A stretch of DNA of 29,892 nucleotides, from the IMG/VR virus record IMGVR_UViG_3300037847_001253, positions 1 to 29,892 of that record; one strand, given 5' to 3'. This document shows positions 4,882-10,335 of this stretch, one piece after another. How positions within the stretch are numbered: position 1 is the first letter of the stretch; every line of letters starts with the position of its first letter. Origin of the DNA: a virus. The position numbers were made by a program, and so were the translations under genes. Below the pieces are notes generated by a model, which worked only from the letters and a program-made list of their open reading frames with translations, ran no database searches and was not told the DNA's origin.

Positions 4882-5263
4882 CAAATTGATCTGGGTTAGT
4901 TAGTGCTATTAGTTCTTCCTTGACACGTTTAGTACCATCATTTACTCTTTTTTGTATTAACCCAGGTTTAGCCAATGCAAGTTTATCTAGGTCATGTTTT
5001 GCGAAAGTGTTACGAAGTTGGTTTACTTCTCGTAATGCTTCCTGTTTTTGCTTTTCTATTATTTGTATTTGTTGTTGTACCTTCTCTGCTTTCTCCAGAT
5101 GATTTTTGATTGATTCGTTCTGTTCTGCTATTTGTGTTTCTAAAACTATTTGATTGCCTTTAAGTGTAGATATTTCATCTAACAATCTATCTATATACCA
5201 AGCACTTGCTGCAATGCTTGACAAAAGTAAACCACCTAATATTACTGCTAACTTTGTTCCCAT
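4856..5263 (-). CDS. Inner-membrane spanin candidate (Rz-like)
   Basis: A 135-residue protein with one N-terminal membrane segment at about residues 5-23, then a long charged coiled coil from about 27 to 95 (LKGNQIVLETQIAEQNESI and onward), and an acidic tail. This is the plan of an Rz-type inner-membrane spanin whose periplasmic coil meets the outer-membrane lipoprotein. The next gene, overlapping by 26 bases, is that lipoprotein, and the endolysin follows. Its ATG overlaps the end of the upstream cyclase gene by 16 bases, so it is probably translated from the same transcript. No sequence-level family match is claimed. Confidence 0.72.
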   Translation of the reverse strand: MGTKLAVILGGLLLSSIAASAWYIDRLLDEISTLKGNQIVLETQIAEQNESIKNHLEKAEKVQQQIQIIEKQKQEALREVNQLRNTFAKHDLDKLALAKPGLIQKRVNDGTKRVKEELIALTNPDQFDDEEINIE

Positions 5264-6990
5264 GTATATACCTTAATTGCTTTGCTTTTACCTTTTACCT
5301 TAATACTTCCTAAAGATTTTAAATTATATGATGATGCTTTCATAGTGCTATCTGCTATTACTAAATTTACACCAAGCTCTTTACAGCTTGATTCCATTCT
5401 TGCTCCAAGGTTTACAGCATCACCTATGGCTGTATAATCAAAGCGTGTTGCACTTCCCATATTTCCTATCACAGCTGGTCCAGAGGATAATCCGATTCCA
5501 ATTTCAATTCCTAAGTCTGCTGCTTCTATGTCGTGTTTTATTTGAATCGCTGTTTTTATAGCAGCATCTTCGTGATTGTCTAAATCAAGTGGTGCATTAA
5601 AGATAGCCATCATTGCATCACCTATGTATTTGTCAACCATGCCACCATTAGCTTGTACTGCACTTGCCTGTATAGTAAGAGCTTTATTCATTAGCTCTGT
5701 TACTTCTTCTGGCTCTAGTCTTTCACTAAGAGATGTGAATCCTCTAACATCAGTAAATAAGAAGGTAGCATATTTTTTTTCTCCTGAAAGTTTTAAAAGG
5801 TCTGGATTATCTTGTAATCTTTTAACCTGTCGTGGATCAAGATAGTGTTCAAATTGTTTTTTGATTTGTTCACGCAACTTATATTGTTCTCTAAATCTAA
5901 AATAAAATTCTTGTGCAGATATAAGTACTGATGATAATAAAGTATAAGTTACATCAATAAGTATATTCTGTTGTATCAAATACCAACCACCATAAGCAGT
6001 CAATCCTATTGTAGTTGTTGCAGCTAAAAGGCTCTCAAGCAAACCGAAATATTTAATCGAAATATATATGACTAAAGAGATTAATATGAATATGAATATC
6101 TCGAATATTAAATGAGAGCCAGGAATCTGTGGGCTTTCGTTTATAAGCATTGATTCAGCTAGTGCTGCTTGTATCATGTGTGGGTTTTTTAATCCATCAC
6201 TTGTGCTTAACTGTGGCATTATGCCTTTAGCTGTAACCCCAACAAAAACAAACTTACCTTCAACATTCATTTCAGATAAAGTTGTTTGTGGTGTATCTAC
6301 CCAGCTAATCCATTTACGACCTACACTATCTACACTAACTGGAGGCAAGCCCTGCACAGCTATTTCTACAACGGCTGATTCTTCTGTTTTGATGATGTAC
6401 GAGTTTGCTTGTACAAGGCTCTTTAAAACTTGTGTACCAAAAGATGCTACCCACCCATCAGGTGTTTGCATCAATAAAGGTAACTGTCTTACTAATCCAT
6501 CTACATCAATAGGTGCAGAAACTACACCCTGTAATGCATTGGTTTTTAGTATATCTATATTTTCTAGAATACCTTGCAACTGAATACCATCTGCTGCTGG
6601 TCCTAAAAATATTGTTCCTTCTGTTGGTGGATATTGATTGTTATCTATTTCAGGCATAGCAATAACGCTAGGCGAATATGATAAAGCTTCTGCAAATATT
6701 TCATCTCCGCCAAACCTATCAGGTTCAGGAAACAAAATAACCCAACCAACTCCGAGTGCTCCTTTGTTTAAAAGATCAACGTGTATCTGTGCTAAGTCTT
6801 GTCTTGGAAATGGATAGCCACCACGTTTCTGTACGTCTTCATCAGTTATATTTAAAATTACAAAGTTGCCTGATGGCTCTGGTGTTTTTACAAAAGCATC
6901 AAATGTCTTTAACTTTAAAATCTCAAGTGGAGTTACTTGAAATGCTAGTGGCAAAATAAATATTGCGATGAACAATAGATATCTTTTCAT
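5248..6990 (-). CDS. CHASE2-domain membrane adenylate cyclase (class III, IIIb-like)
   Basis: A 580-residue sensor enzyme predicted to make cAMP from ATP. An N-terminal hydrophobic helix (4-18) leads into a periplasmic CHASE2 region (about 20-290) with FVILNITDEDVQKRGGYPFPR and FVFVGVTAKG. Three membrane segments follow at about 293-315, 318-340 and 343-360, then a linker helix and the cyclase domain (403-575). Key residues are present: metal-binding Asp414 (FTDVRGF) and Asp458 (GDAMM), purine-selecting Lys454 and Thr520, and transition-state Asn527 and Arg531 (AVNLGAR). The Lys/Thr pair is typical of class IIIb adenylate rather than guanylate cyclases. The gene overlaps the FecR gene stop by one base and the spanin start by 16 bases. 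Bacteria often pair FecR with CHASE2-cyclases; finding both in a phage late operon is unusual. The catalytic domain looks intact. Confidence 0.93.
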   Translation of the reverse strand: MKRYLLFIAIFILPLAFQVTPLEILKLKTFDAFVKTPEPSGNFVILNITDEDVQKRGGYPFPRQDLAQIHVDLLNKGALGVGWVILFPEPDRFGGDEIFAEALSYSPSVIAMPEIDNNQYPPTEGTIFLGPAADGIQLQGILENIDILKTNALQGVVSAPIDVDGLVRQLPLLMQTPDGWVASFGTQVLKSLVQANSYIIKTEESAVVEIAVQGLPPVSVDSVGRKWISWVDTPQTTLSEMNVEGKFVFVGVTAKGIMPQLSTSDGLKNPHMIQAALAESMLINESPQIPGSHLIFEIFIFILISLVIYISIKYFGLLESLLAATTTIGLTAYGGWYLIQQNILIDVTYTLLSSVLISAQEFYFRFREQYKLREQIKKQFEHYLDPRQVKRLQDNPDLLKLSGEKKYATFLFTDVRGFTSLSERLEPEEVTELMNKALTIQASAVQANGGMVDKYIGDAMMAIFNAPLDLDNHEDAAIKTAIQIKHDIEAADLGIEIGIGLSSGPAVIGNMGSATRFDYTAIGDAVNLGARMESSCKELGVNLVIADSTMKASSYNLKSLGSIKVKGKSKAIKVYTWEQS

Positions 6991-8081
6991 TAACCTTGAG
7001 TAATCCTAATTACTGATGATGATCCATTATTTATGGTTATGCTTTTAGATACACCATCTTGTACAATTATTACGCTGTATGCTTGATCTGCACTAAGTAC
7101 TAAATTTACATACTGATTTACGTTTCTAATAATATTTATTTGGTCGCCTTGTAAGATTGTTGTAATCTGTGTTTCAAGGTCTTGTCCTAGTTTTGTACCG
7201 CTTATAGGTATGCCACCCACAAACTGTGCAAGCTCATCTTCTTCTTCCTCTACACCTAGCTCATCTATAACATCTAACAAATCTTCTAGAAAGTTTACAT
7301 TTAAATAATCTATATCAAGTTCTGTAAACTCAAAGTCTGGGTCTTCTTCTAATAAATCTTCAGCTAAATAATCTATATCTAAATCTGTAAACTCTAGATA
7401 ATCATTTTGATTATTTGCTTCTTCTTCTTGAACTAATGCTTCTTCTTTAGGTGGTGAAACAATTAACATATTGTCTATCATGTCTAATGTAATATCTAAA
7501 GTAAGTGGGCTTGTAGGATTAGATTCATATAAGCTTGTTGTTGTTGCTTGATATGGTTTGTCTAATACTACAGAACCTGTAGCAGTAGATACAACTATCT
7601 CTCCACTAGATATGCCATCTATATCTGGCAATAGTATTATTAGTGATCGCCCTAATTCATCAACAGTAACTGTAAAGTCTGTACCTCTAATAGCTATATC
7701 AGCTGTTGGTGTTTTAAGAGAAATATTTTTTTTGTCTATTTTATTTAAGGCACTACTGACAAAACGTATTGTGCCACTAGCAAACTTCAAAGCCATCTTT
7801 GAGTTACTAGGATTAGGATCAAATATATATTCGTCAATTACTAATTTAGAATGTTCAGTTAGTCTTACTATGCTGTCATCTAAAAAAGTTATTGCTATTC
7901 TGCCTTTAGCAGTACGAACATTATCGTATAAGTTTAAGTCAAAATCTAAAGTAGCATCATAAGGCTTATCCCTTACAACCTGCCCATAACCATTTAACTC
8001 TGTTATATCTCCTATAGTATCAGCATGAAGTGGACATACCACCATCATTTTGAATAATACAGATATTATTATTCGATCCAT
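6990..8081 (-). CDS. FecR-domain periplasmic protein with acidic repeat linker
   Basis: This 363-residue protein has an N-terminal signal sequence (MDRIIISVLFKMMVVCPLHA, likely cut near residue 20). A FecR domain follows at about 48-180, with LYDNVRTAKGRIAITFLDDS, LTEHSKLVIDEYIFDP, ASGTIRFVS and TPTADIAIRGTDFTV. No membrane helix follows, so it should be periplasmic or exported. Residues 215-285 form a very acidic linker holding two near-identical units, FTDLDIDYL (231-239) and FTELDIDYL (252-260), 21 residues apart. The C-terminus is Gln/Asn-rich and ends NNGSSSVIRITQG. The start overlaps the curlin-like gene by 62 bases, and the stop overlaps the cyclase ATG. FecR domains act in envelope signalling; here the likely partner is the CHASE2 sensor next door. 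An ATG at 8048 is a less likely start because it would cut into the signal sequence. Confidence 0.87.
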   Translation of the reverse strand: MDRIIISVLFKMMVVCPLHADTIGDITELNGYGQVVRDKPYDATLDFDLNLYDNVRTAKGRIAITFLDDSIVRLTEHSKLVIDEYIFDPNPSNSKMALKFASGTIRFVSSALNKIDKKNISLKTPTADIAIRGTDFTVTVDELGRSLIILLPDIDGISSGEIVVSTATGSVVLDKPYQATTTSLYESNPTSPLTLDITLDMIDNMLIVSPPKEEALVQEEEANNQNDYLEFTDLDIDYLAEDLLEEDPDFEFTELDIDYLNVNFLEDLLDVIDELGVEEEEDELAQFVGGIPISGTKLGQDLETQITTILQGDQINIIRNVNQYVNLVLSADQAYSVIIVQDGVSKSITINNGSSSVIRITQG

Positions 8082-8748
8082 TACTTGTAATCTTTAACCA
8101 ATCTTGTGCAAGAGTACTTGCTTGTGTAATGTTAAATGTATTGCTTGAACCATCTAGATCAAGATAAAAATATCCTGAGTCTGAGGCTGACACTCCACTA
8201 TAACCACTACCAGAAAATGTAATAGAGTTAGAACTACCATTCACATCTACATAGTTTGTAGCATTAGAATAATTGATGTCAAAATCAAATTCGTTTGAAT
8301 CACCAAGAATGATCCAGTCTAAATCTAAATAATCTGCTTCTGCACTATTTGCAATATCTAATGTAAATTCGTTACTTGAACCTGTTACATCTACATTAAG
8401 GTTTGCATAGTCACTTACATTCAATCCTGTTGTATCAAAATCAATATCAAAAACGTTTGAATCACCAGTAAAATCAAATGTCCCTGTAAAGTTAGAACCT
8501 AAAATACCACCAGTAATAAACTTGTTTGATGAACCAATTTGATTAAGATCAAGCGTCATGGTGCTTCCATTTAAAATAGCTGATGTCATTGTGCCAAAGA
8601 TTGCTTCTGTGCCACCAATTAAATTAGAAGAACCAAGCTGCTCAATATCAATACTAGCATTACTACCAGTTTGTTGCACATAGATTTCATTATCAGCATT
8701 AAGATAAATAGAAACTAAAAATATAATTGTTATTAGTTTATTCTTCAT
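8020..8748 (-). CDS. Curlin-like secreted repeat protein
   Basis: A 242-residue protein with a signal sequence (MKNKLITIIFLVSIYLNA) and about nine repeats that centre on a G-[SD]-[SN]-N turn: near residues 28, 39, 72, 95, 123, 149, 171, 200 and 224. Spacing is about 11-33 residues. The first and third repeats keep a curlin look (YVQQTGSN, IEQLGSSN, LNQIGSSN). Later ones alternate hydrophobic residues with Asp (FDIDF, LDLDW, FDFDI) in place of the Gln/Asn ladder. It should form a beta-solenoid or amyloid-like fibre. It follows the CsgG-like gene with an 11-base overlap, which suggests it is the exported substrate. The frame extends to a TTG at 8769, but the ATG at 8748 gives a proper signal peptide. 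Two Cys lie near the C-terminus (230, 242). Homology to CsgA/CsgB is by repeat style and context, not close identity. Confidence 0.75.
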   Translation of the reverse strand: MKNKLITIIFLVSIYLNADNEIYVQQTGSNASIDIEQLGSSNLIGGTEAIFGTMTSAILNGSTMTLDLNQIGSSNKFITGGILGSNFTGTFDFTGDSNVFDIDFDTTGLNVSDYANLNVDVTGSSNEFTLDIANSAEADYLDLDWIILGDSNEFDFDINYSNATNYVDVNGSSNSITFSGSGYSGVSASDSGYFYLDLDGSSNTFNITQASTLAQDWLKITSNGSNNNICIIQNDGGMSTSC

Positions 8749-9586
8749 ATTTCCAATATCCTTTTTCAAAACCTAAGTTTATTAAATTAACAATAGATGT
8801 TTCTATTGCTGCCTGCAAAGCTATTGATTTACTTTCATTCATTGCATTACCTGTTTCAAATTCTACTAATCTTGTATAGTCATCTACATATCTAAACAAA
8901 TCACTATTCAATGCAACAGACAATATAGTTTTAGATGATAGATTTTCTAAAAGAATCTCTCCTGTGCTTACAGAAACAATTCTCAAAGAAACTACTACTG
9001 TATCTTCTCTATATTGTTTTGAGTTACCAATGCCTAAATATCTAGCACCAATACCTCCAGATAATAAATTTGTGTTGTAATCAACAACATTGCCTTCAAC
9101 TATCAAACCAGCAAACAACAAAGGTACTTGCTCAGTTTCATCGTCAAACCTTTCTCTAGTAGAACGTATTATCTGACGTTCTCTAGTAATATGATCTAAT
9201 CCTATTCGTTCTACAACTCTAAAAAATTCTGATTGTTTTAATGCACGTATTAAATAATTTTCTGGTGCTTGTGTAAGTGCTGTAGAAAAATTTGCGTAAC
9301 CATCTACACTTTTTCTTTGTCCTGTCATATCTGTAAACCTATAGACAGCTACAACAGGTTTCTTATAAAAATCTAATGGCTCTACTTCTTTTATTGCTTT
9401 TGTGACTGGTTGATCTATTCTTGCTTCTTGTGAATAACATTGTGCTTCAGAAATAATCGTAACTACATCTTTATAGTCTTCTTGTGGGTTTCCTAAACAT
9501 GGTGATAGATACTGCCAATTAGATGCACAACTACTGACCAAAGCCAAAGTCACCGATAGGGATAGTAATTTCTGTAGTAGTTTCAT
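8738..9586 (-). CDS. csgG: CsgG-like outer-membrane curli secretion pore lipoprotein
   Basis: A 282-residue lipoprotein of about the usual CsgG length, with a lipobox LVSSC ending at Cys20. CsgG forms a ring-shaped outer-membrane channel that exports unfolded curli subunits. Matching segments include VVAVYRFTDMTGQ (78-90), YANFSTALTQAP (97-108), GGIGARYLGIG (177-187), STGEILLENLSSKTILS (207-223) and AIETSIVNLIN (260-270). Asn99 and Phe100 stand where the CsgG constriction has Asn and Phe; the constriction Tyr seems shifted or replaced. The stretch between the lipid Cys and the core is longer than in E. coli and carries Cys30 and Cys50. The C-terminus ends soon after GFEKGYW and is shorter than in E. 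coli. The gene overlaps the CsgF-like gene by 56 bases and the curlin-like gene by 11. Confidence 0.93.
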   Translation of the reverse strand: MKLLQKLLSLSVTLALVSSCASNWQYLSPCLGNPQEDYKDVVTIISEAQCYSQEARIDQPVTKAIKEVEPLDFYKKPVVAVYRFTDMTGQRKSVDGYANFSTALTQAPENYLIRALKQSEFFRVVERIGLDHITRERQIIRSTRERFDDETEQVPLLFAGLIVEGNVVDYNTNLLSGGIGARYLGIGNSKQYREDTVVVSLRIVSVSTGEILLENLSSKTILSVALNSDLFRYVDDYTRLVEFETGNAMNESKSIALQAAIETSIVNLINLGFEKGYWKYEE

Positions 9587-10004
9587 CTAGTGTGTTGTAT
9601 ATAGTTAATGTAATGCTTGTGCCATCGCTGGTCCATGTAATAATATTATCAAACAATTCAAATGAACCTGACTCTGCTGGATTTTCTCCAAACAACTGTT
9701 CAACTAATTGTCTTGATAGCTGTGCAAAAATACGTGATTCAAAGTTACGTATAAATCTTGCAAGTGTTGTGTTCTCAGCATCTCTTTCTAATTCATCTTT
9801 CAAAGCTTGTATCTCAGCTTCTAATGCTTCACGTCTAGTAAATTCTTGGTTTTCTATAGTCAAGTAGTGTGCTGATGTACCTACTCCACTAAAAGAAGGG
9901 CTTTTGAATTTGAATGAAAGTTCATCCGAACTTACGGGATACGAAAAAATTATTAAAAAATATACTGTGTTAAATCCAAAAACCCTAGTCTTTTCTTTGA
10001 TCAT
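9531..10004 (-). CDS. csgF: CsgF-like curli assembly factor
   Basis: A 157-residue exported protein. A signal sequence covers about residues 1-26, and the mature start DELSFKFKSPSFSGVG resembles the FRNPNFGG start of CsgF, the part that plugs into the CsgG pore. A charged helix with possible coil spans about 54-105, followed by a beta-rich end (IITWTSDGTSITLTIYN, TTTEITIPI), the same order as in CsgF. In E. coli, CsgF sits outside the cell on CsgG and couples export to nucleation. The order csgF then csgG matches enterobacterial csgDEFG, but no csgD or csgE is present nearby. The gene overlaps its upstream neighbour by 20 bases and CsgG by 56. The helical region is longer than I would expect for E. 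coli CsgF. Confidence 0.86.
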   Translation of the reverse strand: MIKEKTRVFGFNTVYFLIIFSYPVSSDELSFKFKSPSFSGVGTSAHYLTIENQEFTRREALEAEIQALKDELERDAENTTLARFIRNFESRIFAQLSRQLVEQLFGENPAESGSFELFDNIITWTSDGTSITLTIYNTLDETTTEITIPIGDFGFGQ

Positions 10005-10335
10005 CTCTATCTGCCTTCGCTATTTTATTACTATCTATTAATTGTGGCACACCTAATATAGTTTTTATAAGTGTGTCCTGACGAATTATTTCGTTGTCTA
10101 AGCTACGAATCCTATCAATGAGTGCTACTAGTATGCCATGTTGAGAATCAAGCTTTGTACCTAATCTCTCTTCCATCTGTGTAATAGCAGCATTTACTTT
10201 ATCATCAACAGTATCAAGCTTAGTTTCCATGCCATCAATAATACGCATGATTAGTTTCCAAACAAAAAAACCTAAACCTATTGCTGCAGCTATTGGAAAG
10301 CCCAGCTCAGTTATAAGTCTTATTGCATCATCCAT
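9985..10335 (-). CDS. Small membrane protein with coiled coil (holin-like candidate)
   Basis: A 116-residue protein with one membrane segment near the N-terminus (LGFPIAAAIGLGFFVWKLIM, about 11-31) and then a charged helical coil to about residue 90 (METKLDTVDDKVNAAITQMEERL). It has no signal-peptidase site and would be a single-pass inner-membrane protein. I recall similar proteins in marine phage lysis regions but cannot name a function. It overlaps the nuclease gene by eight bases and the CsgF-like gene by 20. It could be a holin, an antiholin or a membrane anchor. Note that it directly precedes the curli block. Confidence 0.6.
   Translation of the reverse strand: MDDAIRLITELGFPIAAAIGLGFFVWKLIMRIIDGMETKLDTVDDKVNAAITQMEERLGTKLDSQHGILVALIDRIRSLDNEIIRQDTLIKTILGVPQLIDSNKIAKADRDDQRKD

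Follow-up and report, generated by a model that had tools for sequence, protein, structure and literature searches.

The analyzed window, a virus record of 29,892 bp, seems to be a fragment from a marine, HTVC023P-like podovirus. Its portal protein shared approximately 42% identity with those of the pelagiphages HTVC023P and HTVC027P, both podoviruses, and 39% with those of the Roseobacter phages CRP-901/902. The window carries a cassette of consistently minus-strand genes in the order CsgF–CsgG–curlin–FecR–CHASE2/cyclase. Here, csgF and csgG are located upstream of a curlin-like ORF, the only curlin ORF seen in the cassette of this fragment. A spanin and an endolysin are encoded downstream of the CHASE2-cyclase gene, and tail-fibre genes were found near the cassette on the same contig. 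The following features were assigned:

5248..6990, minus strand: CHASE2 sensor and class III nucleotide cyclase (PF05226, 3.9e-27; PF00211, 8.7e-20)
6990..8081, minus strand: FecR-domain protein (PF04773, 1.3e-10)
8020..8081, minus strand: curlin 3' end and annotated FecR start, overlapping by 62 bp in different reading frames
8020..8748, minus strand: curlin-like repeat protein of 242 aa, first ATG at 8748 and stop ending at 8020
8023..8061, minus strand: C-terminal stretch CIIQNDGGMSTSC with two cysteines (mature C212 and C224)
8023..8694, minus strand: mature beta-solenoid of 224 aa, predicted strand-arc-strand repeats round G-[SD]-[SN]-N turns (AlphaFold2 and repeat register)
8695..8748, minus strand: putative Sec signal peptide, residues 1-18 (MKNKLITIIFLVSIYLNA), read from the sequence
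8738..9586, minus strand: CsgG outer-membrane curli export pore (PF03783, 2.6e-48)
9531..10004, minus strand: CsgF, pore-associated curli factor (PF10614, 1.4e-13)
9985..10335, minus strand: protein of 116 aa with a membrane segment and a coiled coil, directly upstream of csgF

Neither CsgE nor CsgC was seen in the window cassette, and a scan for promoters and terminators gave nothing exceeding chance. The CsgG protein matched E. coli CsgG structures (E 3.1e-45) and its lipoprotein-type Cys20 was invariant. It was not nearer to the pore of the Caulobacter holdfast anchor (HfaB/HfaA), with scores of 168.1 bits with the CsgG model versus 18.4 bits with HfaB.

The FecR-domain protein is composed of an N-terminal hydrophobic leader of the signal type, the FecR domain, a disordered acidic linker and a small all-beta C-terminal domain. 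Its AlphaFold2 model was poor overall (pLDDT 67, pTM 0.48) with low confidence in the linker and only moderate confidence in the all-beta tail. Since a leader is present and an anti-sigma region is not visible, we infer that the likelier role of this protein is that of a periplasmic partner of CHASE2. Its C-terminus (6990-7200) carries a conserved beta-rich tail, QDGVSxxVxINGGxSSxITIxQ, which is curlin-hairpin-like in some homologues. A role of the tail as a curlin-like docking hairpin was also considered and rejected: some homologues scored well, whereas the window (P 0.14) and the cellular FecRs did not. The catalytic motifs of the cyclase (FTDVRGFT, VDKYIGDAMMAIF and FDYTAIGDAVNLGARME) look intact.

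The order csgG, curlin, fecR, cyclase was found in all 122 unique viral loci that were complete for the four genes. A second curlin between fecR and cyclase was recognised in none of them, with the fecR–cyclase gaps of more than 300 bp in 20 of the 122 loci screened by motif count only. Two short contigs binned as Rhodobacteraceae (L209) and Planctomycetaceae (L264) are probably phage contigs as well, because they carry the phage-type module with upstream coiled-coil genes; the curlin of L209 is more acidic still (15.6% Asp).

The curlin-like ORF and its repeats

The curlin-like ORF directly follows csgG with an overlap of 11 bp; the reading frame also stays open from a TTG start at 8769, ahead of the first ATG. 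By inspection, the N-terminus MKNKLITIIFLVSIYLNA is a putative Sec-type signal. It is followed by the mature start DNEIYVQQTG, of which D, E and Q8 were invariant across 28 homologues. At the other end of the protein, C212 and C224 were invariant in 28 of 28 aligned homologues, and the pair may form a disulphide-closed cap. A similar C-terminal Cys pair is also present in a Caulobacteraceae curlin. The frame relation between curlin and fecR was the same in 131 of the 132 unique loci, but the fecR start codon was placed at an overlap of exactly 62 bp in only 43 of them. From the shared DNA (8020-8081), one frame would give the invariant Cys tail and another the FecR leader.

Direct search identified 28 viral relatives of the protein and profile search at least 570. 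The first viral locus sets contained 98 length-matched homologues, with 28 sequences, the window included, at less than 90% mutual identity. With the fecR overlap left out, dN/dS of the curlin gene was 0.08 against the nearest distinct homologue, and the family median was 0.03 (60 pairs). Because of this homologue set and the dN/dS of 0.03-0.08 the ORF is no chance ORF; it is real and under strong purifying selection. The repeat number is fixed and each repeat is conserved position by position, with a mean column identity of 76% in the 28-sequence alignment.

The earlier note had described a curlin-like repeat protein adjoining a phage CsgG, with about nine G-[SD]-[SN]-N turns. This description was confirmed, except that the exact turns number eight (residues 39, 72, 95, 123, 149, 171, 200 and 224; spacing 22-33 aa) and are preceded by a shorter ninth one (QQTGSNAS). 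By shuffling, 0.17 exact turns are expected, with a maximum of three in 5000 shuffles. The early repeats retain the Gln-containing curlin pattern Q-x-G-S-S-N, and the strands FDFDI and LDLDW are present, both as noted before. Equally, the signal-type leader and the place after csgG agree with the proposal that the protein is a likely exported cargo. Its score with Pfam PF07012 (Curlin_rpt) was 15.7 bits, below the cut-off of 20.7 bits, which the homologue of phage Melnitz exceeded (26.0 bits). Sequence search against the PDB gave chance antibody matches only.

The structure prediction suggested in the earlier note was run with AlphaFold2 on the 28-sequence alignment. It confidently predicted a beta-solenoid (pLDDT 84.9, pTM 0.84) with regular strand-turn-strand units to the end. 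Repeat proteins of the CsgA/CsgB type consist of strand-arc-strand units of about 23 aa in tandem, each with a conserved Asn in the turn, and the window protein agrees with this pattern. In the viral structure library the first three matches of this model were phage 'Curlin associated' proteins with a probability of 1.00, and Foldseek against the PDB found no match below E 0.001. A second-look structure aligner returned beta-helices of the SufB/SufD type among solved structures (Z 18.4, 199 residues, rmsd 2.7) as well as pectate-lyase beta-helices. As a clue to function these matches were rejected, the architecture alone being shared.

Position of the acidic residues

For the register the turn G was set to 0. 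Positions -6, -4, -2, +5, +7 and +9 (hydrophobic or Gln) point inward and the others are polar. The assignment follows the alternation and the register N-$-Psi-$-Psi-$-Q published for curlin (PMC10192328), not model coordinates. In it, Asp/Glu occupied 17 of the 56 outward positions of the window curlin and 1 of the 48 inward ones. Across the curlin family the numbers were 449 of 1456 and 37 of 1248, respectively (Fisher p 1e-91). Short rows of outward Asp were found at two positions, -3 (repeats 3, 4, 6 and 7) and +8 (repeats 3-5). The turn Asn (+3) was retained in 8 of 8 turns. In the 16 positions of the Gln columns (-2, +9) we counted four Gln, eight hydrophobic residues and one acidic residue. 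Such losses appear to fit the degenerate curlin class known from bacteria, in which Gln/Asn columns turned hydrophobic (PMC10192328), and not canonical curlin, where each repeat has Gln in its two zipper positions.

The idea of an Asp ladder in place of Gln/Asn was thus not borne out: Asn is kept, Gln has mostly become hydrophobic and Asp lies outward. An acidic surface, in line with the acidic solenoid proposed earlier, was supported, and the net charge was -12.1 per 100 aa. The curlins of the myophages HTVC008M (-13.5 and -10.0) and Melnitz (-12.9 and -11.0) and the chromosomal curlin of Hyphomonas (-11.3) were equally acidic, and those of Caulobacteraceae ranged from -6.2 to -9.8. Acidity as a phage-specific trait was rejected on this basis. 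Nor was support found for the claim that the protein is unlike known curli. Sleutel et al. 2023 (PMC10192328) reported the bacterial CsgA R15.5, in which Asp+Glu make up 20% and form outward ladders, in addition to the degenerate class. Judged from the sequences, the two invariant C-terminal Cys and the aromatic content, 10.3% in the window curlin versus 3.2-5.7% in the compared myophage and cellular relatives, are more distinctive than acidity.

Curli operons in bacterial chromosomes

The same gene order, csgF-csgG-curlin(s)-fecR-CHASE2 cyclase, was present in Hyphomonas sp. TMED17 (on a 705-kb contig) and in two Caulobacteraceae MAGs:

L185:7336-13359: chromosomal curli operon of Hyphomonas sp. 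TMED17
L186:7423-13443: chromosomal curli operon of the first Caulobacteraceae MAG
L187:7402-13459: chromosomal curli operon of the second Caulobacteraceae MAG

In both neighbourhoods that were checked (L185 and L186), ordinary metabolic genes flank the operon. The cellular homologues in this layout were recovered by a viral-seeded profile with E values from 4e-22 to 1.9e-47. The Hyphomonas curlin has 504 aa and 19 G..N turns, and the Caulobacteraceae MAGs carry two curlins. In contrast to the window curlin, the chromosomal ones contain more Gln and do not overlap with fecR. When the phage curlin profile was run against 385 Alphaproteobacteria and 398 genomes of a single order, it gave only one MAG, already known. 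This search misses the Hyphomonas curlin, which was found by a local HMM, so that a lack of matches in it carries little weight.

In the abstract of Wittmers et al. 2022 (PMC9599517), FecR and the cyclase are said to be absent from bacterial curli operons. Our data show that bacterial curli operons with both genes exist, in at least these three MAGs as binned. They are consistent with the proposed alphaproteobacterial origin. The shared gene order of the chromosomal operons suggests that FecR and the cyclase were acquired from bacteria as part of the module and were not added by phages. If so, the cyclase would be a testable curli-linked sensor.

Proposed function of the module and comparison with known systems

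Taken together, the ORF very probably encodes a curlin-repeat subunit, CsgA/B-like and of the degenerate class, that belongs to a type VIII (curli) secretion module carried by the phage. During infection it would be exported by Sec to the periplasm, as its leader implies. In view of the gene linkage and the homology of CsgG to the E. coli protein, the unfolded chain would then pass the phage CsgG/CsgF pore. Outside the cell it may fold to an acidic solenoid and stack, so that the infected cell would bear curli-like material. Its outward Asp rows are likely screened by Ca2+ and Mg2+, in which seawater is rich. The FecR-domain protein and the CHASE2 cyclase probably monitor the state of the periplasm or surface and raise cAMP. 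Candidate benefits for the phage are that neighbouring hosts aggregate and are captured, that superinfection is blocked, or that release is controlled.

Several points stand against a curlin subunit, namely the Pfam score below the cut-off, the loss of most Gln zipper positions, the lack of CsgE/CsgC in the cassette and the observation that clumping was not seen in Melnitz-infected cultures (PMC9004378). Moreover, a Cys-closed C-terminus and a fixed repeat number could block end-to-end stacking. Somewhat unlikely in our opinion, the protein might then be a discrete, non-polymerising secreted solenoid (coat, plug or adhesin) that derives from curlin and forms no amyloid fibre; a hydrophobic, aromatic core would make it stable as a monomer, and its Cys-closed C-terminus would cap the stack. 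The fixed length with every repeat conserved position by position (76% mean column identity) would suit such a protein, as would the invariant Cys pair, the largely lost Gln columns together with the aromatics (10.3% vs 3.2-5.7%) and a cassette in which, unlike in HTVC008M and Melnitz, a second canonical curlin was not seen. However, bacterial curlins of the degenerate class with lost Gln columns are known (PMC10192328), the Cys pair also occurs on a cellular curlin adjoining a second curlin, and CsgF is retained. We consider it unlikely that in this podophage lineage the single curlin, having lost most of its amyloid zipper and acquired a Cys-closed end and an aromatic core, is exported by the curli pore to act as a discrete, acidic solenoid at the surface. 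If true, this would be a curli secretion system whose cargo has ceased to be amyloid.

In the direction of the metal-binding or salt-dependent solenoid proposed in the earlier note, the acidic rows could also be read as those of a calcium- or salt-dependent solenoid like the RTX beta-rolls, which would fold only after export into seawater. Outward Asp at -3 (repeats 3, 4, 6, 7) and +8 (repeats 3-5) would stack approximately 4.8 A apart, and the net charge of -12 per 100 aa as well as the ions of seawater are in line with this. It is nevertheless quite unlikely: RTX nonapeptides (GGxGxDxUx) were absent on reading the curlin, and an RTX Pfam match was not obtained even at E 10. Furthermore, the equally or more acidic R15.5 CsgA forms fibrils even in EDTA, and Ca2+ only promotes bundling into more fibrillar aggregates (PMC10192328). 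Very improbable is a virion protein unrelated to secretion (a tail fibre or spike-like beta-helix). The beta-helix resembles phage tailspikes in structure search and tail-fibre genes are nearby on the contig, but the protein carries a putative N-terminal signal peptide, its gene is constantly linked to csgG/fecR/cyclase, and homologous curlins are found in chromosomal operons.

As a curlin subunit, the window protein is an ordinary addition to the already described phage curli module, because phage curli gene sets and acidic outer faces in bacterial curli are already known. The locus represents a compact phage curli module with one well-defined candidate cargo. This module, with CsgA/B, FecR and cyclase among its genes, was reported by Wittmers et al. 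2022 (PMC9599517) for HTVC023P-type podophages and pelagimyophages and found to be widespread in the ocean. The window and this pelagiphage type VIII secretion module share the order CsgF-CsgG-CsgA/B-FecR-adenylate cyclase and the occurrence in marine podophages, whereas the window lacks a second curlin gene between FecR and cyclase. Wittmers et al. also place a 'histidine kinase' upstream of csgF, a name given by these authors and no mechanistic requirement of curli export. In the window this place is taken by the 116-aa protein, in which Pfam and NCBIfam revealed no kinase domain.

Among the myophages, HTVC008M gp016 ('curlin-associated protein' with a CsgB note) matched the window curlin with 4e-14 and Melnitz gene 101 ('curlin associated repeat protein') with 6e-16. 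Identity was 32-34% over 96% and 67% of the length, respectively. Both share the position after csgG and the charge density, but have fewer aromatics and no C-terminal Cys pair. Both phages carry a second, Gln-richer curlin; that of HTVC008M (L108:5639-6964), annotated as hypothetical, has an N-terminal PA14 domain. Buchholz et al. 2022 described Melnitz as lacking csgA/csgB, although two curlin associated repeat proteins are annotated in the record deposited for this phage. For the CsgG/CsgF of myophages, sibling capture or lysis control were proposed by Zaragoza-Solas et al. 2020 and Buchholz et al. 2022.

With R15.5 and the degenerate CsgA of bacteria (PMC10192328) the window curlin shares the predicted strand-arc-strand solenoid and the Asn column. 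The outward Asp/Glu is common to R15.5 and the replacement of Gln by hydrophobic residues to the degenerate class. R15.5 has 15.5 regular repeats with intact Gln ladders, whereas the window curlin consists of approximately nine irregular ones.
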